A stretch of DNA of 64,000 bases from contig NZ_RXOZ01000022.1 of NCBI RefSeq assembly GCF_003991205.1, positions 186,001-250,000 on the forward strand, in the 5' to 3' direction. The notes below the pieces were generated by a model. It searched no databases, had not been told where the DNA came from, and was given only the letters and a program-made list of their open reading frames with translations. Each line of letters opens with the position of its first letter. The stretch's first letter is position 1. Positions 2,133 through 54,001 of the stretch are shown here, piece by piece. This DNA comes from Georgenia sp. SYP-B2076. Lineage in GTDB: Bacteria; Actinomycetota; Actinomycetes; Actinomycetales; Actinomycetaceae. A program made the position numbers and the translations under genes.

Positions 2133-2149
2133 TGTCTCTTACTGCGACA
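2133..2149 (-). promoter_or_regulatory. Island motif copy 1
   Basis: TGTCTCT-TAC-TGCGACA, a 17-bp imperfect palindrome of the TGTCGCA-N3-TGCGACA type. The right half is perfect. It lies upstream of the crotonase gene at 1311-2099, but I see no good -10 box at the spacing found for other copies. Confidence 0.45.
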
Positions 2150-2327
2150 CGTCCCGGGCGCGATCGGGGGTCCGGTTGTGAGCACACGAGGTCGGGCACG
2201 AGAATGAGCACGACCATGGCGTCCATCCCAAGGTGGTGTCGATGGTCCCAGATCCGGGTGCTGGACCGCCCCGTCCACCATCGCCGGGCTTCAGGGGGCG
2301 CCCGCCCCGCCCCTGTCTCGCGTCGGT

Positions 2328-2594
2328 TTAGTCGCTGCCGGCCCCGACGCCGGTCACCGGAGGCACGACCGAGGTGACGATCGGCGGGTCAGCGGCCCGG
2401 ATGAGCGTGGCGCGGACGACCTCAGCGTCAGCATCCACGACCAGCGTCAGGTCCACGCGCACCGCCACCGCGCCGGTCGTGACTCGCGTCGCCGCGCGGA
2501 ACAGCACCTCCTCGAGGAGTGCTTTTCCCCAGGACGCGAGGTCCACCTCGTCTGGCGCGACGCCGTCGAAGCTCGAGGTCGGCTGCTCATGCAT
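2328..2594 (-). CDS. Small protein coupled to a phosphotransferase gene
   Basis: An 88-residue acidic protein of unknown function. Its ATG lies inside the last codons of the upstream kinase gene (8-base overlap, ATGCATGA), so it is probably translationally coupled. It has no signal peptide, membrane segment or cysteine cluster. The middle (SWGKALLEEVLFRAATRVTTG) looks helical. By position it parallels the small LvaB/DUF6285 subunit that partners the LvaA kinase, but the sequence is not recognisably DUF6285. It is the last gene of the transporter operon. Confidence 0.55.
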   Translation of the reverse strand: MHEQPTSSFDGVAPDEVDLASWGKALLEEVLFRAATRVTTGAVAVRVDLTLVVDADAEVVRATLIRAADPPIVTSVVPPVTGVGAGSD

Positions 2595-3741
2595 CGAGGG
2601 CCCCCGTGTCGGCGATGGCGGCGGTCAGCCGCTCGATCATGAGCAGGGACATGTCTTGCGGTTGCATGTCCGGCATGGACGGCGGGTGGACAAGCGTAGG
2701 AGTCCACATGAGCAGCGCGGTGAACAGCTGCAGCCGATACGCCTGCCACGCGTCGTCGAAGGAGATGCGGACGTCGAACCTGTCCCGCAGCCGGTCGAGA
2801 TAACGGCGGAGGAGGTCGAGTTCCCACTCCCGGCGGTCGCCGGCCGCGAGCGTCGTCGCCACCGCGTATGCGACGTCCCTGGCCCAGTGCCCGGCACAGA
2901 TGTCGCCCCAGTCCGCCAAGCCCATCCTGCCCTGGCTCGTTCGATACCAGTTCCCGAGATGGACGTCAGAGTGCAGGAACGTCCGGGGAGCAGATGCATG
3001 AGCGGCGACTGCCTTATCCGTCTGCGCCCAGATCTCTCCCCACCGCTCCCGGACGATGGGCGGGATGACGTCGACAGCCAGGTCGCGTGCTCCCTCGTGC
3101 CCGTCCCGGACCCCCAGCCGGACCATCGCCTGCATGAACGTCTCGTAGTGCGGTAACCAGCCGCCCTCACCCCAGAGCCGGGCGTCGCCGAAGTGGGGTC
3201 CGTGCAGGTCCGCGAGGAGGTCGACGACCTGCTCGGCCTCTGCTCTGGACACGTGCGCCGAGGGCATGAGGAATGTCGCCCCCTTTCCGACGACCAGGTC
3301 CTCCATGAGGTGGAACGATCGGCCCGAGGCCGGGTCTGCGCCCGAGTAGCGACTGACCGGTGCCTCGACGTCCAGGGCAGGGCGGACCTCCCGATAGAAC
3401 CGGACCTCCGGGATCCCACCCATCCAGGTGGACAGGCGATTGAGGACACCCGGCGACGCCCGAGCGAACAGTGCTTCCGGCAGTCCGGCCGAGCGTCCGA
3501 CGTCGTTGTACCGCACCGCGACGGAGCGCCGGACGGTCGAGCCGGTGTCCGCCGCGCCGACGGAGAAGTCCTCGACCGTCGCGCCGCCCACGCCGACGCA
3601 GAGAACGTCCGTCAGCCACGCCGGCGTCAGCGCCTCGACGCTCCACGGAACCTCACCGATCTCCGCGGACGGGGACGTGAGATGGTCCCAGATCACCTGA
3701 GTGCTGATCCGGGCTCGCGCCCGCAGCCGGGGCGCGATCAA
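2587..3741 (-). CDS. APH-type phosphotransferase (kinase 1 of 5)
   Basis: A 384-residue aminoglycoside-phosphotransferase/choline-kinase fold protein. The catalytic loop FLHSDVHLGNWY gives H257, D259 and N264, and the metal-binding DWGD follows at 277-280. These are the residues needed for ATP-dependent phosphoryl transfer. It belongs with the kinase at 15074-16276 (both have a HxDVHxGNW loop and an RFYRxVRP motif). It overlaps the ABC ATPase gene by 4 bases (TTGA), so the annotated start is a TTG; the true start may be further in. Its place in the importer operon suggests it phosphorylates the imported compound or a CoA-bound hydroxy intermediate. An antibiotic-resistance role is unlikely in this context. 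Confidence 0.8.
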   Translation of the reverse strand: MIAPRLRARARISTQVIWDHLTSPSAEIGEVPWSVEALTPAWLTDVLCVGVGGATVEDFSVGAADTGSTVRRSVAVRYNDVGRSAGLPEALFARASPGVLNRLSTWMGGIPEVRFYREVRPALDVEAPVSRYSGADPASGRSFHLMEDLVVGKGATFLMPSAHVSRAEAEQVVDLLADLHGPHFGDARLWGEGGWLPHYETFMQAMVRLGVRDGHEGARDLAVDVIPPIVRERWGEIWAQTDKAVAAHASAPRTFLHSDVHLGNWYRTSQGRMGLADWGDICAGHWARDVAYAVATTLAAGDRREWELDLLRRYLDRLRDRFDVRISFDDAWQAYRLQLFTALLMWTPTLVHPPSMPDMQPQDMSLLMIERLTAAIADTGALDA

Positions 3742-5228
3742 TGGACCGCCGCAAACATGATCTGTTCCTCGGTCACGCTCTCGCCCTCGAACTCTGCGAC
3801 GACGCGCCCACTGCGGGCCACCAGGACCCGGTCGCCCAGCGCCATGACCTCGGGAAGGTAGGACGAGATGACGACGACGGCGGCGCCCTGGTCGGCGATC
3901 TCCCGGATCGCCGTGTGGATGTCCTGGATGGAGCCGACGTCCACACCGCGTGTGGGCTCGTCGAAGATGACGATCTTGGGTGTGCGAGTGAGGGACTTCG
4001 CGAGCATCGTCTTCTGCTGGTTGCCGCCCGACAGCTCGACGAGCAGTGCCTTCTCAGGACGTAATGTGCGGATCGAGAACTTCTCCACGAGGTCCGCCAC
4101 GAGCCGGCTCATCGGCCGTGGCCTGATGACGGGCTGGATCAGCCGCTGCGTCCCCAGCCGGCCGGCTGCGATGTTGTCGGCGATCGTGAGATTGGTGAAG
4201 ATTCCTTTCGCCTTGCGGTCCTCGGTGATGTAGACCAGCCCCGCGCGAATAGCGGCCCGGGGCGTCCTGAAGCGCACCGTGCGTCCGTCCACCCGGATCT
4301 GTCCACCCCCCACGCGCCGTCGCTTCAAGGCGCCCGCAGCGATCATGGCCGCCTCGGACCTCCCCGCACCGACGATGCCGGCGAGCGCGACGATTTGCCC
4401 CGGGTACACCGAGAAGGACATGTTCTGCACGACCGGCGGCAAGGTGACGTTGTCGAGCTCGAGTGCTGGCTCGACGCCGGCCTCGAACGTGCGCGGCTTG
4501 CGACCCAGGGCCACGTCCCGACCGACCATGAGGCGGACGATCTTCTCCCTGGTCATCTCGGCGGCCGGCTCGGTGGCACGTAGCACCCCGTCCCGCATCA
4601 CGGAGATGCGATCCGCATGCGTGAGCGCCTCCTCCAGGTTGTGGGTGATGAAGATGATGCCCGCGCCGTTCTGCTTGAGGCTGTTCATCGACAGGAACAG
4701 CTGACGCGACTCCTCCGGAGTGATCGACGCGGTGGGTTCGTCGAAGATGATGACCCGCGCGGACCGCGCCACGACACGGGCGATCTCCACCATCTGCTTC
4801 TGCGCTGCGCCCAGCGCGGAGACGGGCGAGGTCGGCTCGATGTGGAAGTTCTGCGATGCGAGCAGGATCCTGGCCTTGATGTGCAAGTCATGGAGGTTGT
4901 TCAACAGCCCACTGTCCATCAAGAACAGGTTGTGAGTCACCGTGAGAGAGTCGACCAACGAGTTCTCCTGGTAGACCATGCCGATCCCCGCGTCGACCGC
5001 GTCACGGGGCTCGTCGAAACTGACCTCGGCCCCCTCCAGGCAAAGGACCCCGGCATCCGGCTTCGTCGCTCCCGAGATGATCTTCGCGAGAGTCGACTTG
5101 CCCGCGCCGTTCTCACCGACGACGGCGTGAATCTCCCCCGCCCCGACGTCGAAGTCGACGTCGTCGACGGCGAGTTGTCCCGAATAGTGCTTGGTAAGTC
5201 CGGACACGCTCAACAGGGGCTCGCTCAT
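3738..5228 (-). CDS. Sugar-type ABC importer, double ATPase subunit
   Basis: A 496-residue RbsA/MglA/XylG-type protein with two tandem ABC domains. Domain 1 has Walker A GENGAGKST (38-46), Walker B IIFDEPTAS (160-168) and a degenerate signature (SALGAAQKQ). Domain 2 has the degenerate Walker A GIVGAGRSE (284-292), a full LSGGNQQK signature (399-406) and IFDEPTRGVDVGS. This asymmetry is normal for the family. The ATG at 5228 overlaps the upstream stop as ATGA. It energises the two permeases and the lipoprotein encoded upstream. Ribose-type importers also carry non-sugar ligands, so the substrate need not be a sugar. Confidence 0.93.
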   Translation of the reverse strand: MSEPLLSVSGLTKHYSGQLAVDDVDFDVGAGEIHAVVGENGAGKSTLAKIISGATKPDAGVLCLEGAEVSFDEPRDAVDAGIGMVYQENSLVDSLTVTHNLFLMDSGLLNNLHDLHIKARILLASQNFHIEPTSPVSALGAAQKQMVEIARVVARSARVIIFDEPTASITPEESRQLFLSMNSLKQNGAGIIFITHNLEEALTHADRISVMRDGVLRATEPAAEMTREKIVRLMVGRDVALGRKPRTFEAGVEPALELDNVTLPPVVQNMSFSVYPGQIVALAGIVGAGRSEAAMIAAGALKRRRVGGGQIRVDGRTVRFRTPRAAIRAGLVYITEDRKAKGIFTNLTIADNIAAGRLGTQRLIQPVIRPRPMSRLVADLVEKFSIRTLRPEKALLVELSGGNQQKTMLAKSLTRTPKIVIFDEPTRGVDVGSIQDIHTAIREIADQGAAVVVISSYLPEVMALGDRVLVARSGRVVAEFEGESVTEEQIMFAAVH

Positions 5229-6295
5229 GATTGCCTCTCGACGGTCACGACGGTTCGTGCGCCGGCTGAGCCCACGACGACCGTACCCTCCAGCTCGCAG
5301 ACGGCGGTGATTCCGTGGATGCGCCCGGACGTTCGGGAATGCGCGCTCTCGACCACTCGCCCCTCGGCATCGAACCGCAGCAGGAGGCCGTAGCTCCGCG
5401 GAGGCGCCCACGGCTTGATCTCGCCCATCTCTCGCGCCTGCCCGAGCTGGAGAGGCGCGTGGATGTCCTTCTCGACCGTCAGTCGCGGGATCAGCCAGGC
5501 TCGCTCCGGCAGGTCCGACACCATCTCGTTCAACACGTCGTCCTCGTCGAGGAGCAGCTCGAACGCGCGGCTCCGAGGGTACGGGACCGCCGCCCACCAG
5601 TCGGCGCCCGTGGCGCAGATCCGACCCGGATAGCCCGGCAGGTTGGCGATCAGCTCTCGGCGCGCGCGGCCACCGCCCGCGCCGAGGACGACGATCGCAT
5701 GGTCGTGGCTCAGTGACACCAAGTACCCGCCGTCCGTGAACGGGGCAGCTCCCGCCGGCCAAGCCAGCCCGTCAGCGATCATCTCCACCGAGTCGCCCGC
5801 AATACGCGCGAGGGCTCCGTCCGACACGCCGGAGACCAGCGCGCGGGACCACGAGAGACCGCTCGTGGACCCGACACATGCCAGCAGGGCGCCGTCAGGC
5901 ATCACGGACAGTGCCGTGACGCACTGCCTGACGACCGGGTCGGCGCACACGACGACCACCGACCCGTCAAGGGTCACCGCACAGATGCCAGTTCCTTGCA
6001 CCGCGACGAGGAGCCCGCGCCTCCCGCCGTCGACAGCCAGCGCCTTTGCTCGGCCAGGTAGCGCGATCACGCGCTCCCACGTGCCGCCGTCCCACCGCCT
6101 CAACGCCGTCCCGTCGGTTGCGATGACGGAGCCGTCGAGCGAGACGATGTCATCGACATCGAAGGTCGACCCAAGCGCCACGCTCCGGTCCAGCCGGTCG
6201 TTCGGTGTCAGCCGGCCCTCCATGGGCGGGATCGTCGGACGGTGCACGCGCGAAGGAGCCAGCCACTCCATGACGTCTGACAGGCGAACCCTCAT
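5225..6295 (-). CDS. SMP-30/strictosidine synthase-like beta-propeller
   Basis: A 356-residue protein with repeated blade-like segments (VDDIVSLDGSVIATDG, CVTALSVMPDGALLACV, DGLAWPAGAAPFTDGGYLVSL, IHGITAVCELEGTVVVG), suggesting a six-bladed propeller of the SMP-30/strictosidine synthase group. Members include lactonases and non-catalytic forms. It has no signal peptide, so it is probably cytoplasmic. It overlaps the genes on both sides by ATGA. It is related to the propeller fused to the upstream permease, so the operon encodes both a fused and a free propeller. Function is inferred: ligand sensing or lactone hydrolysis at the transporter. Confidence 0.72.
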   Translation of the reverse strand: MRVRLSDVMEWLAPSRVHRPTIPPMEGRLTPNDRLDRSVALGSTFDVDDIVSLDGSVIATDGTALRRWDGGTWERVIALPGRAKALAVDGGRRGLLVAVQGTGICAVTLDGSVVVVCADPVVRQCVTALSVMPDGALLACVGSTSGLSWSRALVSGVSDGALARIAGDSVEMIADGLAWPAGAAPFTDGGYLVSLSHDHAIVVLGAGGGRARRELIANLPGYPGRICATGADWWAAVPYPRSRAFELLLDEDDVLNEMVSDLPERAWLIPRLTVEKDIHAPLQLGQAREMGEIKPWAPPRSYGLLLRFDAEGRVVESAHSRTSGRIHGITAVCELEGTVVVGSAGARTVVTVERQS

Positions 6296-8481
6296 CGTGC
6301 GACGACCTCTCCGACAGCAGACGTGTCGCCCGCGACCGTCCCCGGCACCTTGTACGGGTCGATCGGCCCGACGTCGGCGGGATCGAGGGCAAGCCGTCCG
6401 ACGCGATTGTTGTGCAGGCCGCCGAGGTAGAGGTAGCCGTTCCGCTCGCTCATCGATGTCACCATCGAGTGCCGCTCCTGCGTGCTGTCCCACAGCACGC
6501 GCACGATCTCACCCGCCTCCGTGAACTTGGCGACGCATGACACGTTCGTCTGCCCGAACACCAGGTCGTCGACGGGCAGCTGCCTGATCATCCTGCGGCG
6601 AAACTCGGGATGCTTGAGGATCAGGTCCGAGAATCCGGTGCGCATACCGGTGAAGCTGAGCCAGTACCCGCCGTCGGACGCCCTGTTGATGTTGTCGGGA
6701 TTGCCCGGCAGATTCTCCATGAAGGGTTCGAGCTGCCCTTGCTTCGGACCCGCGATCCAGAGGCGGTCGACCCGGCACGAGAAGGTGCTGGCGATGAGGA
6801 TCGACATGCCGTCGTGGGCAGTGGCGATCCCGTTCGGACCCATCATGTTCCTCACGACCGTCTCCACCGACCCGTCAGGGTCGATGCGCAGCAGCCGCCC
6901 GTCCGGACGGAACTCGGCAGCGAGCAGGTGATGGTTGCTGGCCTGCAGTCTCGTCGAGGCATCACTGACGTAGATGGACCCATCGGCGGCGATGTCGAGA
7001 TCGTCGGCGAATCTGATGGCGGAGTCGTCGAAGACCCGAAATCGCGTCCGCCGCGTCTTCGTCGCCACCCACTCGATCGACCGATCGGGGGCGATCCGGC
7101 CCACGCCGATGCCTCCCACGGCGACGACGAGGTTCCCGCTCGGGTCGAAGACGTGGCCGAGTGGCAGACCGCCCGTTCTGACGAAGATCTCGGAGTCCTC
7201 GAAGTTCTCGCCAGAGAAGCGCCAGATCCAGCCGCGCCGATCGCCACAGTAGAGGCGACCCGCATCGTCGACGACGCAGTCCTCCGGCCCTTCGACAACC
7301 CCCAGCCCGATCGGTTCGGCGGAGGTCAGGTCCTCGTTGAGCTTCCACACCGACTGCGAGGTGTAGTCGAGCAACGGACCGGACTCGTACCGGAAGGGTG
7401 ACATGGCGAGCTTCTGGACGAGGTTTCCGCGATACTTGTAGAACTTCTCGTCAAGAATGGCGAAGACGATCAGCGTGAGCGCGAGAGCGAACGAGTACCA
7501 CTCCTGGTCGAGACCTTGGCGGAAGATCGACTGGCTGAGGATCGCCACGACGAGGGCTCCGACGGCGGCTCGGATGGCAGAGCCGCGTCCACCGCCCAGG
7601 CTCACCCCTCCCAGCACGACCGCGGTGAGTGCGACGATCTCATAGCCGACGCCCACGGACGCGCTGGTACTTCCCTGCCGGGCCGAGATGAAGACTCCTG
7701 CCGATGCGCTGAGCACTCCACTGATGACGTAGGTGAGGAACGTGACACGGCCGATCGAGATCCCATTGCGGCGAGCCGACCGGCGATCAGTCCCGACAGC
7801 AGCCAACCACCACCCCCACCGGGATCGGGTGAGGACGACGTGGGTGACTGCGACGACCGCCACCATAACCCACAGCCCCACGGAGACGCCCGCGATGGCG
7901 CCGTGGCCCACGAACTCCCACGACAGGCTCTCGACCGGGGCGACCAGCCGTGCGGAGTAGTGCGACTGCACGAGCTGCAGCATCGCGAAGAGCGCCACCA
8001 TCATGACAAGAGTGGTGATCAACGGGCGGGTCTTCGCGACGGCGATGAAGAACCCGTTCAACGACCCGAGGAGCGCTCCACCGATGAGCACCACCACGAT
8101 AGTGAGCGTCGCCGGGAGCTCATACACACGCAGGAGCACCAGACTCCCGATCGCCGCGTTGCCCATGATGGCGCCGACCGACAGGTCGAAGCCACCGCCG
8201 AGGAGAACGATCGTCATGGCCACCGCGAGAAGACCGACCTCGACGAACTGAGAGAGGATGACGTGTCGGTCACTCGACGACAGGATGGCCGGCGTCGTCA
8301 TGGCGAATGCTGCTGCCAGTGCAACGGCGAGGACGACGGGAAGCCCGCCCTCCATCCATGGCTTCGCCAGGACATCACTGACCGTGCGTCCGGGAGCGAG
8401 GCGTCGAATCCGCGGCTGACCGGTGGTCCAGTACCCGTCGACAGCCTTCTGTCTCGCCATTGGCTTACCCTGCACACTCAT
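6292..8481 (-). CDS. ABC permease fused to an SMP-30/strictosidine synthase-like beta-propeller
   Basis: A 729-residue two-part protein. Residues ~45-355 are a ribose-type (BPD_transp_2) permease with about ten hydrophobic segments, including LLGGGFDLSVGAIMG and LGGVSLGGGRGS. Residues ~385-710 are a soluble beta-propeller (VEGPEDCVVDDAGRLYCGDRRG, MMGPNGIATAHDGMSILIAS, MENLPGNPDNINRASDGGYW), matching the strictosidine synthase/SMP-30 pattern. There is no frameshift or internal start between the parts. I chose ATG 8481 because GAGGTG lies just upstream; an in-frame start at 8529 would overlap the lipoprotein gene. The C-terminal domain probably lies on the cytoplasmic side, where it could bind or open a lactone as it enters. 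The fusion is clear from sequence; its role is inference. Confidence 0.88.
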   Translation of the reverse strand: MSVQGKPMARQKAVDGYWTTGQPRIRRLAPGRTVSDVLAKPWMEGGLPVVLAVALAAAFAMTTPAILSSSDRHVILSQFVEVGLLAVAMTIVLLGGGFDLSVGAIMGNAAIGSLVLLRVYELPATLTIVVVLIGGALLGSLNGFFIAVAKTRPLITTLVMMVALFAMLQLVQSHYSARLVAPVESLSWEFVGHGAIAGVSVGLWVMVAVVAVTHVVLTRSRWGWWLAAVGTDRRSARRNGISIGRVTFLTYVISGVLSASAGVFISARQGSTSASVGVGYEIVALTAVVLGGVSLGGGRGSAIRAAVGALVVAILSQSIFRQGLDQEWYSFALALTLIVFAILDEKFYKYRGNLVQKLAMSPFRYESGPLLDYTSQSVWKLNEDLTSAEPIGLGVVEGPEDCVVDDAGRLYCGDRRGWIWRFSGENFEDSEIFVRTGGLPLGHVFDPSGNLVVAVGGIGVGRIAPDRSIEWVATKTRRTRFRVFDDSAIRFADDLDIAADGSIYVSDASTRLQASNHHLLAAEFRPDGRLLRIDPDGSVETVVRNMMGPNGIATAHDGMSILIASTFSCRVDRLWIAGPKQGQLEPFMENLPGNPDNINRASDGGYWLSFTGMRTGFSDLILKHPEFRRRMIRQLPVDDLVFGQTNVSCVAKFTEAGEIVRVLWDSTQERHSMVTSMSERNGYLYLGGLHNNRVGRLALDPADVGPIDPYKVPGTVAGDTSAVGEVVAR

Positions 8482-8522
8482 CGGGGGCACCTCATTCGTC
8501 GTGGGGGCACCGGGGGTCGCAC

Positions 8523-9560: not shown

Positions 9561-9625
9561 TCTCTCGACCTTTCGGTTGGACGGTGTCGAGCCATGGGTT
9601 GATGACGCACGACAAGCGGTCGACG

Positions 9626-10648: not shown

Positions 10649-10654
10649 GCCGGA

Positions 10655-10704: not shown

Positions 10705-10865
10705 CACCCTTGCGGTTGGCACACAGAACGTCGACGCACGACGACGAGAAGAGTGCAGACCGAGTGCTCGGACCGTGAACCACCCAGTCGGCGCGACGGT
10801 GCATCAATCGGCAACTTGCGGACGGTCTCGTCGGGGTTTGCTCGACCGCGCAAGCCCACGCGGGC

Positions 10866-12262: not shown

Positions 12263-12267
12263 CCGGC

Positions 12268-13375: not shown

Positions 13376-13392
13376 CGTTGCGAAATGCGACA
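13376..13392 (-). promoter_or_regulatory. Island motif copy 3
   Basis: CGTTGCG-AAA-TGCGACA between the ligase stop and the lipocalin-like gene. The right half is perfect and the left half matches 4 of 7. I see no -10 box at the usual spacing. Confidence 0.35.
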
Positions 13393-14978: not shown

Positions 14979-15028
14979 ACGTTAATGAGCGCTGGCACTG
15001 TGGCGCAGCGGTGTCGCACAGTGGTACA
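14979..15028 (-). promoter_or_regulatory. Island motif copy 4 and promoter of the acyl-CoA synthetase gene
   Basis: Motif TGTCGCA-CAG-TGGTACA at 15012-15028 with a perfect left half. On the minus strand a TAACGT -10 box (14984-14979) starts 36 bp from the motif centre. The leader to ATG 14939 is about 33 bases. Confidence 0.7.
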
Positions 15029-16316: not shown

Positions 16317-17183
16317 TCACGAGAACGTGGGCTCGCTCCACCATGGGTAGAAGCCGGGCATGTCAGTGCTGACCTTGTTGGTGAAGAAGGGCGTGCGCCT
16401 CTCCAGGAACGCGCGCACGCCCTCCCGGGCGTCGGGTGACGCTCCCCTCGAGAGCACGCCACGAGACTCCAGCTGGTGCGCCTCCATCGGGTGAGAGGCT
16501 CCCAGCATCTGCCACAGCATCTGCCTGCTCAGCGCGACCGACACAGGCGCTGCTCCGTCGGCGATCTCGCGCGCCAACCGGTAGGCCGCCGGCAGGAGGT
16601 CCTGCGGCTCGTGCAGCTGGTGCACAAGCCCCCGGGTGTACGCCTCGTCGGACCCGATCATCCGGCCGGTGAGGACCCACTCCTGTGCGGCTGCGATACC
16701 GACGATGCGTGGCAGGAACCAGCTGGAGCAGCCCTCGGGGGTGATCCCACGTCGGACGAACGGGAATGCGTAGCGCGCGTCGGTCGAGCAGAGCCGCACG
16801 TCCATCGGCAGGGTCAGCGACGCCCCGCCACCGATCGCGGGCCCGTTGACCGCCGCGATGATCGGCTTGGTAGAGGCGAAGATCCGCAGTGCCAGGACGC
16901 CTCCCGCATCGCGCACGGATTGCGGTTCGCCGGCAGCTGCCTGCCCCGACGTGCCGGCGATGTGTTCCGCGGCGAACGAGTCCTCCCCGGCGGAAAGGTC
17001 GGCACCGGCACAGAAGGCTGTTCCTCTCCCGGTCACCACGACCGCTCGGACGTCGTCGTCGGCGTCGGCGCGATCGAGCGCGCGCACGATGTCGAGCATC
17101 CCATCGAGAGTCAGCGCGTTGCGCTTCTCCGGACGGTCGAGCGCGATGGTCATCACGCGCTCGTCGGTCTCGACCGAGATCAT
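16317..17183 (-). CDS. Enoyl-CoA hydratase/isomerase family protein
   Basis: A 288-residue crotonase-fold protein: RPEKRNALT at the start, GRGTAFCAGADLS oxyanion loop, AIGGGASLTLPMDVRLC helix and FVRRGITPEGCSSWFLPRIVG. The first catalytic Glu of rat hydratase is absent (GASLTL), whereas TPEG carries a Glu. It closely resembles the paralogue at 29569-30405 (FARRGLMPE...SSWFLPRLVG). ATG 17183 overlaps the TetR stop by ATGA and has GAGGT upstream. Confidence 0.87.
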   Translation of the reverse strand: MISVETDERVMTIALDRPEKRNALTLDGMLDIVRALDRADADDDVRAVVVTGRGTAFCAGADLSAGEDSFAAEHIAGTSGQAAAGEPQSVRDAGGVLALRIFASTKPIIAAVNGPAIGGGASLTLPMDVRLCSTDARYAFPFVRRGITPEGCSSWFLPRIVGIAAAQEWVLTGRMIGSDEAYTRGLVHQLHEPQDLLPAAYRLAREIADGAAPVSVALSRQMLWQMLGASHPMEAHQLESRGVLSRGASPDAREGVRAFLERRTPFFTNKVSTDMPGFYPWWSEPTFS

Positions 17184-17854
17184 GGGACCTCTACCCGGGA
17201 ACGCGCGGCGCTGATCCCGCCGATGATCAGGCGGAGCATCTCCTCGATGATCTGCTCGGGCGTGGCCGGCCCCTCGGGCCGGTACCACTGGTACACGGAG
17301 TTGAGCATGCCGATCACGCCCTGAGCGGACAGGTCGGGGTCGAGGTCCGACCGGAAGACCCCGCCGTCACGCCCTTCGGTGAGCAGACCGACGACGTACG
17401 TCATGTAGCGATCACGTTCGGTGATGATGCGCTCTCGCCTCTCGGGACTGAGCCGGTTGACATCACGGAGGTAGACGGAGACGAAGTCTCGGTCGTCCCG
17501 TAGCGACCGGGCGTAGCCACGCACCAGGGCCGCTAGCCGGACATCCGCCGGGCCGTCGATCGCCTTACAGGTCGCGACGAGGTCGAGGATCGACTGGTGC
17601 TGGCGCAGGATCACCGCCCAGAGGAGGTCGTCCTTGGAGTTGATGTAGTGGTACAGGCTCCCCTTGAGCAAGCCGAGCTCGTCCGCGATCTCCTGCAGGC
17701 TGGTCGCGTCGTACCCGCGGCTACGGAACTGCCGAACGGCGACGTCGACAAGCGCTTGCTCGCGGTCGGAACGGGCCTCGACCTCCTGCTGCCCGCCATC
17801 TGTCGCCAAGGTAGACAACGCCTTGTGCCGCGTCCGCGTCTTCCGCTGGGTCAT
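17180..17854 (-). CDS. TetR-family transcriptional regulator
   Basis: A 224-residue regulator. The N-terminal helix-turn-helix is at about residues 30-75 (VAVRQFRSRGYDATSLQEIADELGLLKGSLYHYINSKDDLL). The C-terminal ligand domain (WYRPEGPATPEQIIEEMLRLIIGG) looks like the group that senses acyl-CoA esters, such as KstR2. It lies within the thiolase operon, overlapping the crotonase gene by ATGA. A TetR-type palindrome sits in the divergent promoter 1.2 kb upstream, its probable operator. Likely a repressor of both the 15-19 kb and 19-24.6 kb units. Confidence 0.9.
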   Translation of the reverse strand: MTQRKTRTRHKALSTLATDGGQQEVEARSDREQALVDVAVRQFRSRGYDATSLQEIADELGLLKGSLYHYINSKDDLLWAVILRQHQSILDLVATCKAIDGPADVRLAALVRGYARSLRDDRDFVSVYLRDVNRLSPERRERIITERDRYMTYVVGLLTEGRDGGVFRSDLDPDLSAQGVIGMLNSVYQWYRPEGPATPEQIIEEMLRLIIGGISAARSRVEVP

Positions 17855-26636: not shown

Positions 26637-26687
26637 ACGCTAGGCGGGTCGGCTCGGGCTTCCGAGGAGCTGTTCCAGAGTGCGACA
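26637..26687 (-). promoter_or_regulatory. Island motif copy 5 and promoter of the dehydrogenase-hydratase operon
   Basis: TGTTCCA-GAG-TGCGACA at 26671-26687 with a perfect right half. On the minus strand a TAGCGT -10 box (26642-26637) starts 37 bp from the motif centre. The leader to ATG 26582 is about 48 bases. Confidence 0.7.
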
Positions 26688-27229: not shown

Positions 27230-27246
27230 TGTGTCAATCTCGGACA
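27230..27246 (+). promoter_or_regulatory. Island motif copy 6
   Basis: TGTGTCA-ATC-TCGGACA, 5 of 7 matches in each half, 130 bp upstream of the flavin-dependent monooxygenase-like gene at 27376. No clear -10 box at 36-38 bp. Confidence 0.45.
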
Positions 27247-37495: not shown

Positions 37496-37546
37496 ACAGT
37501 AGGCGGTACCCGCAGCCTCCGACCCCGTGTGCACTGAAGTGCGACA
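37496..37546 (-). promoter_or_regulatory. Island motif copy 8 and promoter of the paired dehydrogenase operon
   Basis: TGCACTG-AAG-TGCGACA at 37530-37546 with a perfect right half and a weak left half. On the minus strand a TACTGT -10 box (37501-37496) starts 37 bp from the motif centre, which supports the site despite the poor left arm. Confidence 0.58.
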
Positions 37547-39437: not shown

Positions 39438-39487
39438 ACGGTAGGCCCCGTCGGGCGGCGGGACGGCTCTGGTCGCGAATTGCGACA
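39438..39487 (-). promoter_or_regulatory. Island motif copy 9 and promoter of the LLM-hydratase operon
   Basis: GGTCGCG-AAT-TGCGACA at 39471-39487. On the minus strand a TACCGT -10 box (39443-39438) starts 36 bp from the motif centre. One of two copies in the 249-bp divergent gap at 39372-39620. Confidence 0.7.
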
Positions 39488-39527: not shown

Positions 39528-39579
39528 TGTCGCAGTGTGAAACAAGGGGGGCCCGACACCGCGACGGGCTGGCTAACTT
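39528..39579 (+). promoter_or_regulatory. Island motif copy 10 and promoter of the dehydrogenase gene at 39621
   Basis: TGTCGCA-GTG-TGAAACA at 39528-39544 with a perfect left half. A TAACTT -10 box (39574-39579) starts 38 bp from the motif centre. It serves the plus strand, while copy 9 serves the minus strand. Confidence 0.7.
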
Positions 39580-40958: not shown

Positions 40959-42770
40959 TCAGTAAGCGGTGTGGTCGAGGTCGAACCCCAGGGCCCGAAC
41001 CTTGCGGTAGAGGGTCGACCGGGCGATCCCGAGGTTGGCGGCCGCGAGCTTCTTGTTGCCGTCGGCCGCCTTCATGGCCGCGACGATCGCCTGCGCCTCG
41101 AGTCGCTCGAGCGTTGACAGGTCCCGACGGGTCGCCCCGGCCAGGACGTCGGACGGGAGGTGCTCGCGTCGGATGTACGGTCCGACGTGTCGACTGAGCA
41201 TGGTGTTCACCAGGCTCTCCAGCGACCGCAGGTTGCCCGACCAGCCGATCCTGCTCAGCACCTGAACCGCCTCCCGGGTCCAGACCGGGCGGTTCCACAA
41301 CGTCGCCCTCGATGCAGTGATGGCGTCGAGAAGCAGCGGGATGTCACCGAGCCGCTCCCGCACCGGTGGTACGCGAACCGACGTCCCGGGCCAGCCCGAG
41401 AACGACTCCATGAACTCCGGGTCGAGCGTGTCAGCGAAGTCGTGAGGTCCGCTCGCCAGCACGTGCGGAGCGCCGTCGCCCATCGACCGGACCGCCTCCG
41501 CCGTCGCCACCAGCAGGGGACGGGGCAGCAGCAGCACGTTGTCGAGCACGACGTAGTCCAGGTCGGACGTCAGTGCCGGGATGAGCCGCGACAGCCAGGT
41601 CGCGTGCGCATCCGGATCAGGGCTCGCACCGTCGAGCGTGAGCGTCCTCGCGTCGGCCGTGAGGCGTTTGAGGATCGTCGTCTTCCCGACGCCGGGCTCA
41701 CCGACGAGGAGTACCGACCGGTCGCTGGCCAAGCCGTCGCGCAGCTGGTGCCGGAACGTCCGCCACGCGAGGCTGGTGCCAGGCATGTCGTCGAGCACCG
41801 GCGCCGGCGCCGGCGCCGGCGCACGACTTGACCGCCCGGGCGATGCGCTCCCGAGCTGGGGGACATCGAGGCGGAGCATCGCGCCCACAGCGCGGTCACC
41901 GTTGAGGACTGGCTGGCAGGTGACCTTGATGTGCCCCTCACGCTCGGTGCTCGCGAGCGACAGGACACTCTCCCGCCTGGATCGGATCACGTCGCTCGCG
42001 GCGTCCCAGAGCAGACCGCGGTCAAGGCCGTCCATCAGACGGGCGGCCGCCGCGTTGCCGATCATCGTGTGGTCGTTGAGGCACACCACTGGTTGCCGGC
42101 GGTCGCGCTTGACCGCTAGGTACACATCGAGCAGGTGCCGCTCGTCCTCGGTGCTCGCGTTGAGCATCTCGCGCTCGATCAGCGCGCCGACCTCCTTGAT
42201 CCACTGGAGCATGATGGGTGAGGAGTCAGCGATGTCGCAGCTGATGTTGAGGGTCCCAGCACATCGCTGGGTGAGAGGGTGGCGGATCGGCACGCTCGCC
42301 GAGGACATCCGGTAGCCCTTGTCCGTGTACTGCTCCCAGCCCCTGACGAAGGTCCCCTGCCCGGTTTCCAGGGCGATTCCCACGCTCGCCGTACCGATCG
42401 CGTTCTCGGCGATGCTGAACCCTGGCAGCACCGACCGCACGCGCAGCCTGTGCGCGAAGCCTTCCCCGGTCGTCCAGCTCTCCAGCACGACGCCCTCGCT
42501 GTTGGTGAGCGTGAGTCCGCACTCGAGGTCGACCAGCCAGTCCAACCGCGACTCGATGACCGGCCGAGCCACCCGCGTGAGCTGGTTGTCATGCTCGATG
42601 GTGGCGACAGCCACCGGTCGGACGGAGCCAGGATCCAGGCCGTACAGCAGTGATCTCTTCCACGAGTCCACGATGACTGGACGGACCACCTCGGGGGGAG
42701 GGACCAGCCCTTCGCCGAAGAAGGACTCCCGGGCCCTCCTGACGCGGTCCAACACCTCGATGTCCACCAT
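40959..42770 (-). CDS. GAF-AAA-Fis transcriptional regulator without GAFTGA (AcoR/MimR-like)
   Basis: A 603-residue activator-type protein. The N-terminal part (1-60) has the SWKRSLLYGLDP signature of AcoR-type regulators. A GAF sensor spans ~65-200, and a PAS-like section follows to ~300. An Ala-Pro linker (316-325) precedes an AAA region with Walker A GEPGVGKTT (357-365) and VPPVRERLGDIP. The C-terminal Fis-type helix-turn-helix is GNKKLAAANLGIARSTLYRK (~572-591). The GAFTGA loop that contacts sigma-54 is missing, as expected in actinobacteria, which lack sigma-54. A near-perfect palindrome lies 109 bp upstream of its start. It is the best candidate to recognise the island motif, through TGT-N11-ACA. 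Confidence 0.9.
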   Translation of the reverse strand: MVDIEVLDRVRRARESFFGEGLVPPPEVVRPVIVDSWKRSLLYGLDPGSVRPVAVATIEHDNQLTRVARPVIESRLDWLVDLECGLTLTNSEGVVLESWTTGEGFAHRLRVRSVLPGFSIAENAIGTASVGIALETGQGTFVRGWEQYTDKGYRMSSASVPIRHPLTQRCAGTLNISCDIADSSPIMLQWIKEVGALIEREMLNASTEDERHLLDVYLAVKRDRRQPVVCLNDHTMIGNAAAARLMDGLDRGLLWDAASDVIRSRRESVLSLASTEREGHIKVTCQPVLNGDRAVGAMLRLDVPQLGSASPGRSSRAPAPAPAPVLDDMPGTSLAWRTFRHQLRDGLASDRSVLLVGEPGVGKTTILKRLTADARTLTLDGASPDPDAHATWLSRLIPALTSDLDYVVLDNVLLLPRPLLVATAEAVRSMGDGAPHVLASGPHDFADTLDPEFMESFSGWPGTSVRVPPVRERLGDIPLLLDAITASRATLWNRPVWTREAVQVLSRIGWSGNLRSLESLVNTMLSRHVGPYIRREHLPSDVLAGATRRDLSTLERLEAQAIVAAMKAADGNKKLAAANLGIARSTLYRKVRALGFDLDHTAY

Positions 42771-42878: not shown

Positions 42879-42895
42879 TGTCCCATCCTGGGACA
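42879..42895 (-). promoter_or_regulatory. Island motif copy 11, perfect palindrome before the regulator gene
   Basis: TGTCCCA-TCC-TGGGACA is a fully symmetrical 7-3-7 palindrome between the SDR stop (42956) and the regulator start (42770). No -10 box is found at 36-38 bp, so it may mediate autoregulation by another arrangement. Confidence 0.6.
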
Positions 42896-46161: not shown

Positions 46162-46210
46162 GCAAGCACTCCTGTCAGGTCAACTCAGCGGTCAGCGAGG
46201 TGCGGCGGGA

Positions 46211-46954: not shown

Positions 46955-47032
46955 CGCAGCTCCGTCTCCTCGTTGCGGAGGACCACCATCGTCCTCACGC
47001 CGTCACCGTAGGCGGAGCCGCGGGCCGCACCA

Positions 47033-47049
47033 TGTCCCAATCTCGATCA
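47033..47049. promoter_or_regulatory. Island motif copy 12 (weak)
   Basis: TGTCCCA-ATC-TCGATCA in the divergent gap between the SDR (46954, minus) and hydratase (47114, plus) genes. The left half matches 6 of 7; the right half is poor. A TACGGT box on the minus strand begins 31 bp from its centre, off the usual spacing. Confidence 0.3.
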
Positions 47050-47113
47050 TCGGCTGGCGCGCACGAGAGCGCGGCCCCCATCGTCGGACGGACCGAGAGG
47101 AGCCCCGAGGACC

Positions 47114-47929: not shown

Positions 47930-47968
47930 CCGTGGTCCAAGCCCCAGGCACGGAAAGGACGTCCTCTC

Positions 47969-49000: not shown

Positions 49001-49033
49001 CGCGCCGGTGGGGCAGCACCGCGAGCCCGCCGG

Positions 49034-49786: not shown

Positions 49787-49830
49787 TACGAGCCTCTCTG
49801 TAGTCCGCAGGCGTTCCGCCGCGCGGTGAC

Positions 49831-49915
49831 ACGCTACTGACCAGGCCGGACGCCGCGGCGCCCTCGTCGCAAAATCGAACAGCCCCGCACCGGCGAGCAC
49901 TCCGTCATATTCAAT
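49831..49915. promoter_or_regulatory. Island motif copy 13 with divergent promoters
   Basis: CGTCGCA-AAA-TCGAACA at 49865-49881. On the minus strand TAGCGT (49836-49831) starts 37 bp from the motif centre. On the plus strand TATTCA (49908) or TTCAAT (49910) starts 35 or 37 bp away. One central site could thus drive both the SDR at 49034-49786 and the kinase operon at 49923. Confidence 0.65.
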
Positions 49916-49922
49916 GCACAGC

Positions 49923-50957
49923 ATGTCCACGCACACCCACGACCTCGTCCGCCTGGACCGACTCGGCCCGGCCCTGGCGGTGGCGACCGGAGACGACGCC
50001 TGGCTGCACGTCAGCGCCTCCCTCATCAGTGGCGGCAAGTCCAACCTCACGTTCACACTGTCCAGCGCGGCCGGCGAGCTGGTGCTGCGGCGACCTCCCA
50101 CGGGGGTCCTGCTGCCAAGCGCGCACGACATGGGCCGAGAGGCTCGGGTGCAGCGGGGCCTGGCCGGTAGCAGGGTCCCGGTGGCGCGGGTCGTGCTCGA
50201 GGACGAGGGCGACCTCATCGGCATCAGGTGCTACGTGATGGAGAAGGTGCCGGGCCACATCATCCGGGACGAGCTGCCCGCCGGCTTCGCCACGACCCCA
50301 GCCGAGCGCGAGCAGCTGGCGTCCGCGTTCGTCGACACCCTCGCCGCCCTCCACGCCGTGGTCCCGGAGGCACTGGGGCTGGACGACTACGGCCGCCCGG
50401 CGGGGTTCATGGAACGCCAGGTGCGGCGATGGACCGGCCAGTGGGAAAGGAGCAAGACCCACGACGTCCCCGAGATCGACGAGCTGGGGCGCCGGTTGGC
50501 GACGCGGGTCCCCCACCAGCAGCGCGGCACCATCGTCCACGGCGACTACCGGATGGACAACGTCGTGGTCAGCCCGACCGACCCGGGACGGATCAATGCC
50601 GTGCTGGACTGGGAGCTCTCCACCCTCGGGGACCCGCTGACCGACGTTGCGTTCTTGACGCTCTTCTGGCGCGGCGCCGAGGAGCCGCAGCTCAGTCTCG
50701 CGCCTGGCGTGAGCCACCTGCCGGGCTTCCCTGACCGCGCCGCACTGCTGGAGCGGTATGCCACCGCCTCCGGAGCCGACCTGTCCGACATCGGCTACTA
50801 CCAAGCGTTCGCCCACTACAAGTTCGCGATCATCGTCCAGGGTGTGGCGGCCCGCTCCGCCGCCGGTGCGATGGGCGGCCAGGACTTCGGTGACCTCGAC
50901 GACGAGATCCTCGGTCTGGCGCAGGCCGGGCTCGACCACATCCAAGGAGACAGTTGA
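49923..50957 (+). CDS. ACAD10/11-type APH phosphotransferase (kinase 5 of 5)
   Basis: A 344-residue kinase: loop LISGGKSNLTFTL, catalytic loop TIVHGDYRMDN (H206, D208, N213) and VLDWELSTLGDPLTDVAFL (D229). This is the classic ACAD10/ACAD11/LvaA signature. Its stop overlaps the next dehydrogenase start (TGATG), and an SDR follows, giving a kinase-dehydrogenase-SDR order. ATG 49923 is only about 10 bases from the predicted -10 box, with no ribosome-binding site, so the mRNA may be nearly leaderless. ATG 49914 is the alternative. Confidence 0.9.
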   Translation: MSTHTHDLVRLDRLGPALAVATGDDAWLHVSASLISGGKSNLTFTLSSAAGELVLRRPPTGVLLPSAHDMGREARVQRGLAGSRVPVARVVLEDEGDLIGIRCYVMEKVPGHIIRDELPAGFATTPAEREQLASAFVDTLAALHAVVPEALGLDDYGRPAGFMERQVRRWTGQWERSKTHDVPEIDELGRRLATRVPHQQRGTIVHGDYRMDNVVVSPTDPGRINAVLDWELSTLGDPLTDVAFLTLFWRGAEEPQLSLAPGVSHLPGFPDRAALLERYATASGADLSDIGYYQAFAHYKFAIIVQGVAARSAAGAMGGQDFGDLDDEILGLAQAGLDHIQGDS

Positions 50958-52162
50958 TGGACTTCGCCCTGTCGGCCAAGGCCCAGGAGACCTGCGAGGA
51001 CATGTGGGACTTCATGCGGTCCCACGTCTTCCCGTCCGAACCGGTCTGGGACGCCCACCTCGCCGAGCACGGCGCGCACTCGACCCCGCCGGTCATCGAG
51101 GACCTCAAGGCCGAGGCACGCCGGCGGGGACTGTGGAACCTTTTCCTCCCCAAGCTGTCTGGCCTGTCCAACCTCGAGTACGCAGCCGTCGCGGAGATCT
51201 CCGGCTGGTCCCCCGTCATCGCCCCGGAAGCGATCAACTGTCAGGCTCCCGATACGGGGAACATGGAGACCCTCGAGCTCTTCGCGACGCCGGAGCAGCG
51301 CGAGCGCTGGCTCGATCCGCTCCTCGCCGGGACGATCCGGTCTGCCTTCGCCATGACCGAGCCGGATGTCGCGTCCTCCGATGCCACGAACATCACGACG
51401 AGCATCACCCGTGACGGCGACGACTACGTCATCAACGGCCGGAAGTGGTGGATCACCGGAGTCGCCGACCGGCGTTGCGAGATCTTCATCGTGATGGGCA
51501 AGACCAACCCGGACGCGGAGACCCACCGACAGCAGTCGATGATCCTGGTCCCGCGCGACACGGCCGGAGTGACGGTCGAGCGCCACCTCCCCGTCTTCGG
51601 CTTCCAGGACCAGCACGGCCACTCCGAGATCACCTTCGACGACGTTCGTGTCCCGGTCACCAGCCTGCTCGCCGACGAAGGCGACGGCTTCACGATCGCC
51701 CAGGCCCGCCTCGGCCCCGGACGCATCCACCACGCGATGCGCGCGATCGGGATGGCCGAACGCGCCTTGGCCCTCATGGTCGACCGCGCCAAGAACCGAG
51801 TGGCGTTCGGCAAGCACCTCTCCGAGTACGCCAACGTGCAGGACATGATCGCGGACTCCCGCATCGAGATCGACCAGGCACGCCTGCTCGTCTACAACGC
51901 CGCCTGGCTCATCGACAAGCACGGCGCCAAAGGTGCGCGGACGGAGATCTCCGAGATCAAGGTCGCCGCCCCCGCCGTGGCCATCGGAGTCATCGACCGC
52001 GCCATCGAGGTCTTCGGCGCCATGGGGGTCTCCAACGACACGGTCCTGGCTGGTCTGTACGCCTGGGCCCGAGCGCTCCGCGTCGTCGACGGACCCGATG
52101 CCGTCCATCGCCGCACCATCGCCCGCAGGGAACTCAAGAAGAGCCCGCCGTTCATCGGCTGA
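50957..52162 (+). CDS. ACAD10/11-type acyl-CoA dehydrogenase
   Basis: A 401-residue acyl-CoA dehydrogenase of the same branch as 44857-46161: AINCQAPDTGNMETLELFATPEQRERWLDPLLAGTIRSAFAMTEPDVASSDATNI, INGRKWWITGVADRRCEIFIVMGKT, NRVAFGKHLSEYANVQDMIADSRIEI. The start shares TGATG with the kinase stop, with AAGGAG upstream. The tight coupling to the kinase fits phosphorylation followed by phosphate elimination on one CoA substrate. Confidence 0.9.
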   Translation: MDFALSAKAQETCEDMWDFMRSHVFPSEPVWDAHLAEHGAHSTPPVIEDLKAEARRRGLWNLFLPKLSGLSNLEYAAVAEISGWSPVIAPEAINCQAPDTGNMETLELFATPEQRERWLDPLLAGTIRSAFAMTEPDVASSDATNITTSITRDGDDYVINGRKWWITGVADRRCEIFIVMGKTNPDAETHRQQSMILVPRDTAGVTVERHLPVFGFQDQHGHSEITFDDVRVPVTSLLADEGDGFTIAQARLGPGRIHHAMRAIGMAERALALMVDRAKNRVAFGKHLSEYANVQDMIADSRIEIDQARLLVYNAAWLIDKHGAKGARTEISEIKVAAPAVAIGVIDRAIEVFGAMGVSNDTVLAGLYAWARALRVVDGPDAVHRRTIARRELKKSPPFIG

Positions 52163-52177
52163 GAGTCGGAGGCAAGC

Positions 52178-52966
52178 ATGACACAGGCATTCAGCACGGT
52201 GGACCTCTTGGAACGATTCCGTCTCGATGACAAGGTCGTCGTCATCACGGGCGCGAGCTCAGGCCTGGGTCTCGGGTTCGCCCGGGCCTTGGCCGCTGTG
52301 GGCGCGACCCTCGTGCTCGCCGCCCGACGGGAGGACCGCCTCACTGCCCTGGCGGACGAGCTGCGCGCCGCAGGGACGAGCGTGCTCGTGCACCGGACCG
52401 ATGTCTCCCTCCAGGCGGAGTGCGAAGCGCTGGCCAGTGCCGCGGTCGCGGAGTTCGGGCGCATCGATGTCCTGGTCAACAACGCCGGCGTCGGACCTGC
52501 CGGTCCTGCGCTGCGCGAGGACCCGCAGGTCTTCCAGGACACCATCGACATCAACCTCGTCGGCACCTACCGTGTCGCGGTTGCCTGCGCCCCGCACATG
52601 CCCAAGGGGTCATCGATCGTCAACATCGCGAGCGTCGTGGGACTGGTGGCATCCCTGTCCCCCCAGGCGCACTACGCCGCGAGCAAGGCCGGCGTCCTCG
52701 GTCTCACCCGCGACCTTGCACAGCAGTGGTCGGCTCGGCGCGGGATACGGGTAAACGCCCTGTGCCCGGGATACTTCGCCAGCGAGATGACGACGTCCAA
52801 GGGGGAGGACTTCCTCCGCGAGATGGTCGCAGACAACAGCATCCTGGGCCGGTTCGGCGAGCAGGAGGAGCTTGACGCAGCACTCCTCTTCCTCGCCTCG
52901 CGGGCCTCGTCCTACATGACCGGAGGGTCCTTGGTCGTCGACGGCGGCCTCACCGCGACTCTGTGA
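52178..52966 (+). CDS. SDR-family oxidoreductase
   Basis: A 262-residue short-chain dehydrogenase: TGASSGLG, NNAGVGPAGPA, NIASVVGLVASLSPQAHYAASKAG, RVNALCPGYFASEMT. It is third in the kinase-dehydrogenase-SDR module (GGAGG before ATG 52178), matching the place of LvaD. Likely a 3-hydroxyacyl-CoA dehydrogenase. Confidence 0.9.
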   Translation: MTQAFSTVDLLERFRLDDKVVVITGASSGLGLGFARALAAVGATLVLAARREDRLTALADELRAAGTSVLVHRTDVSLQAECEALASAAVAEFGRIDVLVNNAGVGPAGPALREDPQVFQDTIDINLVGTYRVAVACAPHMPKGSSIVNIASVVGLVASLSPQAHYAASKAGVLGLTRDLAQQWSARRGIRVNALCPGYFASEMTTSKGEDFLREMVADNSILGRFGEQEELDAALLFLASRASSYMTGGSLVVDGGLTATL

Positions 52967-52978
52967 CCCCGCCTGGTG

Positions 52979-53845
52979 TCAGGGCATCGGGTCGGCTTCG
53001 CGGAGGACCGGACGATGGTCGTGTGGCTCGCTCCCCACGATGCGGTCGACCCACTGCTCGAGCTGTGCCTCACTGACCCCCCTCATGGTCAGCCAGCCCC
53101 GCACGCCCCCGTAGGTTCGGTCGACATGGCCAAGAACCGCCTCGATGGCTGCCGGCGTGACGAAGTCAGCGTCGAGGGGGACCGATCCCAGCGCACCGGC
53201 CCGTGCCAGACGCGCCATGCACGCCTTGATGTTGCCCTCGGTCCTGCGGTAGTCCGCAACGATCTCGCCGGCTTCCACCCCCGCGGCGCGCAGCAGCAGA
53301 GCCACGACGACGCCGGTTCTGTCGCGGCCCGCCGCGCAGTGGACCAGGGTGGGCCCAGGGCTGTCCAGGACGGCCGCGACTGCGGCGGTCACCGCGTCTC
53401 CGCGCCTCTCCAGCCAGCGGATGTACATGGTGGTGAAGTAGGCGCCGAGGTCTGCGTTCCCGGGCAGCTCTCGACCCGCCGCGGCACCCCTGTCGACCTC
53501 GTCGGTGACCACGGGGCGCCGGCGGACCTCTGCAGCATCCGCCAGCGGGTGGGCGCTGCCACGCCACTCGCCAGGAGACCGCAGGTCCACGACCGTCCTG
53601 GGCGGCCACACCGCCGCGCCCTCCGGCACGTCGTCACCAGCGAGCGGCACATCGCTGCGGTACAGCACGCCACTCCTCGTCGGGCTGCCTGCGGCGGTGA
53701 GCAGCCCACCGACGTCTCGGAAGTTGGTGAGGCCGGTCTCGCTCCGTTGCACGGACTCGCCGTACCTCACCGCCGCGACCGCTCGGGCAGCCCGACCCTG
53801 GTCAAGCACATGGAGATCGCCTTTCACCGCGACAATAGTCAGCAC
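52979..53845 (-). CDS. Tyrosine/serine phosphatase-like protein (DSP/PtpB type)
   Basis: A protein-tyrosine-phosphatase-fold protein of about 288 residues: GLTNFRDVGGL near the start, LYRSDVPL, VDLRSPGEW, then the P-loop VHCAAGRDRTG with the catalytic Cys and Arg. The family includes PtpB-like phosphatases acting on phosphoproteins and small phosphates. In this island it might remove phosphate from a metabolite, but that is speculation. The start is uncertain: GTG 53845 gives a suitable length, while in-frame TTG 53902 and GTG 53827 also exist, none with a strong ribosome-binding site. Confidence 0.75.
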   Translation of the reverse strand: MLTIVAVKGDLHVLDQGRAARAVAAVRYGESVQRSETGLTNFRDVGGLLTAAGSPTRSGVLYRSDVPLAGDDVPEGAAVWPPRTVVDLRSPGEWRGSAHPLADAAEVRRRPVVTDEVDRGAAAGRELPGNADLGAYFTTMYIRWLERRGDAVTAAVAAVLDSPGPTLVHCAAGRDRTGVVVALLLRAAGVEAGEIVADYRRTEGNIKACMARLARAGALGSVPLDADFVTPAAIEAVLGHVDRTYGGVRGWLTMRGVSEAQLEQWVDRIVGSEPHDHRPVLREADPMP

Positions 53846-53951
53846 TCCCGAGGGTAGACCGACTCTCCTTGTGCAGTAGGTCGCGCATTCCAGGTGTTTC
53901 AATTCGGCACACTCGGGAGAAATCCTTGGACAGGGGGCCGGGCGGCCGTTT

Positions 53952-54001
53952 CATCGCAATGTGCGACAGTCGGTCCCTCGCCATCGGGGGGCCGCTACGA
54001 T
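53952..54001 (+). promoter_or_regulatory. Island motif copy 14 and promoter of the MBL-fold gene
   Basis: CATCGCA-ATG-TGCGACA at 53952-53968 with a perfect right half. A TACGAT -10 box (53996-54001) starts 36 bp from the motif centre and ends 7 bases before ATG 54009, so the transcript is likely leaderless. It is the last copy in the window. Confidence 0.7.

Follow-up and report, generated by a model that had tools for sequence, protein, structure and literature searches.

We examined a 64,000-nucleotide stretch of DNA (C12:186001-250000, C12 being the contig; hereafter the window) that forms part of a 4.28-Mb genome, the source of which is judged from its protein relatives to be an actinobacterium, and in which a palindrome near TGTCGCA-N3-TGCGACA recurs within an island of catabolic genes. 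Our predictions taken as a whole make it very probable that this palindrome serves as operator for activators encoded in the island itself, namely the product of g39 and two paralogues encoded outside the window (C12:175022 and C12:180495). As judged by homology, these three proteins are relatives of the sigma-54 enhancer-binding proteins (EBPs) of the DhaR/AcoR type that have no GAFTGA loop. In the mechanism we favour, a regulator dimer would bind the palindrome through a Fis-type helix-turn-helix (HTH), the N-terminal sensor region would place the regulator under the control of a pathway ligand, and the bound regulator would bring in ordinary sigma-70-type polymerase at promoters that have a -10 box but no evident -35 element. 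Binding itself, the dimer, the ligand, activation over repression, the start sites and a single operator common to all three paralogues are parts of this scheme that we infer.

Distribution of the palindrome

All fourteen palindromes listed in the first-pass annotation were recovered at their coordinates, and each (14/14) lies between genes in our gene models. Compared with the 14 specified letters, seven sites carry 2 mismatches, 13376 carries 3, four sites carry 4 (10688, 27230, 32289 and 49865) and two carry 5 (37530 and 47033). Scanning the window with up to 3 mismatches allowed gave 11 matches, 8 of the 14 listed sites being among them, versus a mean of 4.4 and a maximum of 10 in shuffled sequence (11 or more in 0/100 shuffles). 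As this plain scan is weak on its own (11 versus 4.4), it was replaced by genome-wide counts and position weight matrices (PWMs). With up to 2 mismatches, 8 of only 10 places in the 4.28 Mb fall in C12:165946-239968 (a reversed control pattern gave 4 places), and the relaxed pattern TGTNNCA-N3-TGNNACA with up to 1 mismatch puts 12 of its 16 genome places in the island, including all 4 exact matches (control, 6). The motif is thus enriched in the island and not evenly spread over the genome.

The PWM used for scoring was built from 141 sites of other genomes with no island sequence; these sites had themselves been found with a PWM from the window, leaving the matrix free of the island's sequence but not of the motif idea. 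In a scan of 290 kb it placed 13 of the 14 listed sites within the top 23 places, and 22 of the 23 places scoring at least 12 bits were inside the island. By this measure 37530 is weak and 47033 marginal. The reported absence of the motif from the 55-64 kb region also holds, the top place there (59084) reaching only 9.4 bits. Sites that the earlier list did not contain are 53895 (14.7 bits) and 25179 (13.3 bits, within a gene) in the window, and C12:165946, 166015, 166991, 174796, 174871, 180321 and 182221 upstream of it.

Of the operon heads counted in C12:160.5-241.0 kb, 33 in number, 26 have an operator no more than 300 bp upstream, with sites shared by divergent genes scored for both; in the two flanks this holds for 1/91 and 0/32 heads. 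The island thus starts about 20 kb ahead of the window and ends near window position 54 kb. The earlier description of a 52-kb island with the motif before most operons therefore stands as to the operons but not as to the extent, which reaches about 20 kb further upstream; measured by its operator sites the island spans C12:165946-239968 (74 kb, 1.7% of the genome).

Chance palindromes, which we considered as a source of the pattern, are ruled out by the genome-wide counts, the PWM ranks and the operon-head counts.

The predicted regulators, operators and -10 boxes are listed below (window coordinates unless C12 is given; box distances are from the operator centre; ranks are within the 290 kb).

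40959..42770, minus: g39, proposed activator, 603 aa, with DhaR-like sensor region, degenerate AAA+, AAA_lid_14 and Fis-type HTH_8
C12:175022-176797, plus: g39 paralogue outside the window, by homology
C12:180495-182204, plus: g39 paralogue outside the window, by homology
42879..42895, minus: operator upstream of g39, perfect palindrome, 23.8 bits, rank 1
2133..2149, minus: operator upstream of g2 (enoyl-CoA hydratase family), 16.4 bits
10688..10704, minus: operator before g9 (ABC permease), 13.1 bits
10655-10660, minus: predicted -10 box of g9, 36 bp, inside g9 as called
13376..13392, minus: operator before g12 (DUF7064/7065 protein), 13.7 bits
15012..15028, minus: operator before g13 (acyl-CoA ligase family), 21.0 bits, rank 3
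14979..14984, minus: predicted -10 box TAACGT for g13, 36 bp
26671..26687, no strand: operator between g24 (acyl-CoA dehydrogenase, minus) and g25 (plus), 21.1 bits, rank 2
26637..26642, minus: predicted -10 box TAGCGT towards g24, 37 bp
27230..27246, plus: operator before g26 (acyl-CoA dehydrogenase family), 16.3 bits
32289..32305, no strand: operator between g30 (minus) and g31 (SDR, plus), 17.0 bits
32334..32339, plus: predicted -10 box TAACCT towards g31, 37 bp
37530..37546, minus: weak operator-like sequence before g35, 7.5 bits, rank 51
37496-37501, minus: TANNNT for g35, 37 bp from the weak 37530 site
39471..39487, minus: operator for g37 (luciferase-like oxidoreductase), 13.5 bits
39438..39443, minus: predicted -10 box TACCGT towards g37, 36 bp
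39528..39544, plus: operator for g38 (acyl-CoA dehydrogenase), 20.5 bits, rank 4
39574..39579, plus: predicted -10 box TAACTT towards g38, 38 bp
47033..47049, no strand: marginal operator between g43 (minus) and g44 (plus), 12.5 bits, rank 23
49865..49881, no strand: operator between g46 (SDR, minus) and g47 (APH family, plus), 13.7 bits
49831..49836, minus: predicted -10 box TAGCGT towards g46, 37 bp
53895..53911, no strand: operator between g50 (minus) and g51 (plus), 14.7 bits
53952..53968, plus: operator for g51 (metallo-beta-lactamase-fold protein), 13.6 bits
53996..54001, plus: predicted -10 box TACGAT towards g51, 36 bp
17180..17854, minus: g16, TetR family by family match, a rival regulator that we do not favour

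The true start of g9 is probably later than called, with ATG codons 24, 36 and 84 nt downstream. Only 7 nt separate the end of the proposed TACGAT box from the g51 start codon, an ATG (53996-54011), and the g51 transcript may therefore be leaderless. Operators also occur in pairs in four intergenic regions (39471/39528, 53895/53952, C12:165946/166015 and C12:174796/174871), the distance being exactly 57 bp in two of the four pairs, and 69 and 75 in the others.

The predicted regulators and their operator in other genomes

The two paralogues share 37% and 36% identity with g39. All three regulators possess HTH_8 and a Walker A motif, two of the three possess AAA_lid_14, and each of the three genes has an operator upstream. 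The regulator profile matches ZraR, NtrC and FleQ chains, and its N-terminal region can be aligned to the E. coli DhaR sensor structure (4lrx, E 1e-13), although the score of 107.6 bits for the NCBIfam DhaR family falls below the cut-off of 551. GAFTGA is absent in an alignment of the three island regulators with four Rhodococcus relatives, and a motif search found GAFTGA-like sequence in 0/66 actinobacterial relatives (two of them incompletely readable) versus 6/8 non-actinobacterial ones. Six loci with partial regulator matches (L089, L090, L097, L098, L100 and L102) were excluded from the GAFTGA search and from the counts on 73 and 74 loci, whereas L073, also partial, and L092, which has six in-frame stops, stayed in. 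The stops in the latter, a relative in Aquihabitans sp. G128 (L092:10001-11767), lie within the matched range, and this gene is broken or frameshifted.

To follow operator and regulator across genomes we used 84 loci, comprising the best 80 of 336 relatives from a species-genome scan with seven regulators, and four Rhodococcus plasmid loci picked from 231 plasmid records. At least one operator of 13 bits or more was present in 72 of the 84 (permuted palindromes gave about 0.3 matches per locus), and the 400 bp preceding the regulator contain an operator in 39 of 73 loci (mean for permuted palindromes, 0.77), one of 74 loci having been dropped from this count for too little upstream sequence. 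The fifth half-site base follows the type of recognition helix, being 79 G and 36 C where the helix reads IARST (28 loci) but 17 G and 91 C where it reads IARSS, ISRST or ISRSS (35 loci), and this covariation ties the motif to the protein. In a tree of 47 regulators, a selected part of the set, the three island regulators form one clade (support 99/98) that is sister to a Klenkia and Nocardia pair (92/87).

Distance between operator and -10 box

At nine of its sites the first-pass annotation had placed a TAnnnT-like box 36-38 bp from the operator centre, and all nine are exactly as claimed. We kept TANNNT as the box pattern following that choice, and removed in-gene site-directions and near-identical promoters (at least 58 of 70 letters alike) before counting. 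The 29 island site-directions that remained hold 16 TANNNT from +9 to +110, of which 9 are 36-38 bp from the centre (binomial p 1.6e-10); a box at this distance is thus present in 9/29 site-directions, with a background of 0.02. In the regulator's close clade in other genomes the TANNNT peak instead lies exactly 31 bp from the operator centre (20/62 site-directions, background 0.07 per position; 20 of 37 TANNNT, p 9e-31), and 13/109 site-directions of other actinobacteria also have a box at 31. In total, 22 of 77 loci (76 others plus the island) possess a box at 31, 12 of them in the close clade and the island not among them. The hexamer of the 31-bp promoters is mostly TAGCGT or TACCGT, and the logo built from all 33 of them has no visible -35 consensus. 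Island boxes, which include TAGCGT twice, TAACGT and TACCGT, are of this same hexamer type, and the same sigma factor is therefore likely to serve both.

If the box's first T is numbered -12, the operator centre would lie at about -43 for the 31-bp spacing, and at about -48 to -50 for the 36-38 bp of the island. The earlier suggestion that an activator sits near -48 of promoters of the sigma-70 type is thus supported as a prediction, by an island-specific motif at a fixed distance from the -10 box, by the missing -35 consensus in related promoters, and by a regulator family that, like TyrR, DhaR and HupR, which are reported to depend on sigma-70, has no GAFTGA. Beyond it, we find that the island encodes three paralogous regulators and that its predicted position of about -48 departs from the family's approximately -43. 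On these predicted promoters, the island spacing is about half a helical turn longer than in the regulator's clade elsewhere. A broader proposal, to which we would give somewhat less than an even chance, is that the GAFTGA-less family acts in Actinomycetota as a position-locked sigma-70 activator at about -43, and that the island regulon (about 75 kb, with its regulator tripled) has been re-registered by about half a turn, to -48 to -50, with operator and -10 box alike. The sister Klenkia has four boxes at 31, which suggests that the shift is a property either of the branch of the island or of the host.

Several observations weigh against our interpretation. In 34 of the 73 loci, several of them in the close clade, the 400 bp ahead of the regulator contain no operator, and one of the 60 permuted palindromes scored 21 loci in the same count. 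The link between helix and base is confounded by descent, and base 5 in the island's own half-sites is mixed (16 G, 12 C, 8 T). The 24 site-directions taken from loci of the order of the host or of Micrococcales peak at neither 31 nor 36-38, and so speak neither for nor against a host-lineage cause of the shift; 9 site-directions from non-actinobacteria likewise have no peak at these distances. The operator before g39 itself (42879) has no TANNNT within 60 bp, and the same is true of sites 2133, 13376 and 27230. Site 47033 has its TANNNT at 31 towards g43 and not at 36-38, and partial -10 matches at 31 occur in five further island site-directions.

The last two points, together with a soft -10 score in which position 31 ranks third in the island, and the presence of a box at 36-38 in only 9/29 site-directions (11 boxes counting 10688 and 37530), would fit a situation in which our view of regulators and operators is correct and only the half-turn difference is not real, with the island's -10 boxes lying elsewhere, for instance at 31. 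We consider this unlikely, though it merits more weight than any other alternative. Full TANNNT boxes at 28-33 occur in 0/29 island site-directions versus 9 at 36-38, compared with 25 versus 4 in the close clade (Fisher p 4e-6), and the island boxes share their hexamer type with the 31-bp promoters. It is more doubtful still that these regulators, once bound to the operator, act chiefly as repressors or activate from another position, with the TANNNT spacing reflecting another constraint. Activation is a predicted part of our scheme and some operators have no -10 box at the fixed distance, but a fixed operator-to-(-10) distance combined with no -35 consensus (33 promoters of the 31-bp type) is what would be expected from an activator that replaces -35 contacts.

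Other candidate regulators, known relatives and the catabolic island

Operators of the TetR family are often palindromes, a TetR gene (g16) is present in the island, and TetR/AcrR genes lie near the regulator in three of four annotated Rhodococcus loci, all of which would suit g16 as a repressor of the island acting at the palindrome. We nevertheless find this improbable to a high degree. A g16 relative was found in only 2 of 74 loci fetched by the other regulator (tblastn E<1e-4, a search confined to g16's own relatives among TetR families), unlike the operator, present in 72/84; the operator moreover covaries with the HTH_8 recognition helix, and its position upstream of the -10 box is ill-suited to a simple repressor. 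Least credible of all is that true sigma-54 promoters use the sites as upstream activating sequences, for although the genome encodes a 424-aa rpoN-like protein with Sigma54_DBD and Sigma54_CBD, has a GAFTGA-bearing activator about 7 kb from it, and TGT-N10-12-ACA operators are reported to be typical of sigma-54 activators (PMC6615313), g39 and its paralogues have no GAFTGA and are not among the genome's 5 Sigma54_activat matches, a -24/-12 pattern scan of 290 kb of C12 gave one match, within a gene, and it is instead the distance to a TANNNT box that is fixed.

The rpoN-like gene (G000:C1:286208-287482; L104:6208-7482, plus) matches Sigma54_DBD at 87 bits with no AID match, and its neighbouring activator lies at C1:294554-295942 (L104:14554-15942, minus). 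Sigma54_DBD was found in 0/8 congeners and 2/50 other relatives. The gene is unusual here because Actinomycetota are reported to have no functional RpoN (PMC12316311). No link between this gene and the island was found.

Earlier reports describe TyrR, DhaR and HupR as sigma-70-dependent proteins with no GAFTGA, argue that VpsR belongs with them (PMC3162934), and add R. capsulatus NtrC and Caulobacter NtrC as further cases (PMC10274813). E. coli TyrR and DhaR, R. capsulatus HupR and NtrC and V. cholerae VpsR resemble the island regulators in their bacterial EBP ancestry, their missing GAFTGA and an expected independence of sigma-54, but differ in operator, pathway and phylum, the island being a regulon of a family whose locked operator-to-(-10) distance comes in two lengths. 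E. coli DhaR is also alike in the sensor region noted above, whereas the island's targets are acyl-CoA degradation genes and not the dihydroxyacetone or acetoin genes of DhaR or AcoR proper. In class II activation the activator, for example CRP, sits at about -41.5 abutting the -35 region, similar to the -43 of the relatives, while the -48 to -50 of the island would be nearly on the opposite DNA face. Sigma-54 EBPs of Clostridiales possess a Fis-type HTH, as do the island regulators. Many of these EBPs are reported to have TGT/ACA inverted repeats 10-12 bp apart (PMC6615313), an operator class like the TGT-N11-ACA of the island, but they use sigma-54 and GAFTGA, whereas in the island the promoters are predicted to be of sigma-70 type and the operator adjoins the -35 region. 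AcoR-like and Fis-type regulators, putative from sequence, have been placed beside actinobacterial monooxygenase genes; they are alike in phylum, broad family and catabolic neighbourhood, and differ in that no operator or spacing is given in the portion of the report at hand (PMC8784404). Nor was an operator seen in the accessible part of a report on EtpR (PMC4630880). No title or abstract that we found describes the operator or the spacing rule, the heptamer literature having been covered in part, and an earlier report may exist. With GAFTGA-less sigma-70 relatives on record, and GAFTGA lost in the actinobacterial members, the kind of regulator is already known; new, as far as our search went, are the island's operator and regulator, a fixed spacing among the actinobacterial members of the family, and its variant that is half a turn longer.

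The island encodes acyl-CoA dehydrogenases, enoyl-CoA hydratases, thiolases, acyl-CoA ligases and SDRs, together with a pair formed by a thiolase and a ChsH2-like OB-fold protein, F420-type luciferase-like oxidoreductases, APH-family, phosphotriesterase-like and SMP30-like proteins, and two ABC importers. This gene set presumably may serve the breakdown of an alicyclic or terpenoid-like acid, a candidate substrate. One gene, g7 (6292-8481), is a single open reading frame in which an ABC-permease domain (BPD_transp_2) is followed by a strictosidine-synthase/SMP30-like domain, an unusual fusion whose start is uncertain. Relatives of g17-g20, g23 and g24 occur in 4-7 of 16 close-clade loci (identity up to 72% for g24) versus 0/9 control loci, and part of the pathway thus appears to move with the regulator clade. 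No g39 relatives at E<=1e-40 were found in 58 relatives including 8 congeners, and the island therefore looks accessory. In a phylum sample no g39 homologues at E<=1e-65 were found in 395 other genomes, and in an order sample of 396 there were homologues at E<=1e-30 in 11 other genomes. The window has a guanine-plus-cytosine (GC) fraction of 0.69, compared with 0.71-0.75 for C12:1-140 kb. Across C12:140000-290000 the GC drops from about 0.73 to 0.66-0.70, starting near C12:140 kb, and a weak type IV coupling-protein match (E 4e-6) lies at the window's end (62596-63732); the region around C12:140000-290000 may thus be acquired DNA.

These results assign a large catabolic regulon its probable regulator and operator, and would provide a usable code, from helix type to half-site base, for a little-studied family of actinobacterial activators found beside catabolic genes. 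The island may also serve as a natural experiment on the rigidity required of the spacing between activator and promoter, its predicted distance being shifted by about half a turn in a promoter otherwise conserved, and it makes the workings of sigma-54-activator relatives directly testable in a phylum largely without sigma-54. If the re-registration is true, these activators, or the polymerase of the host, can engage from nearly opposite faces of the DNA.

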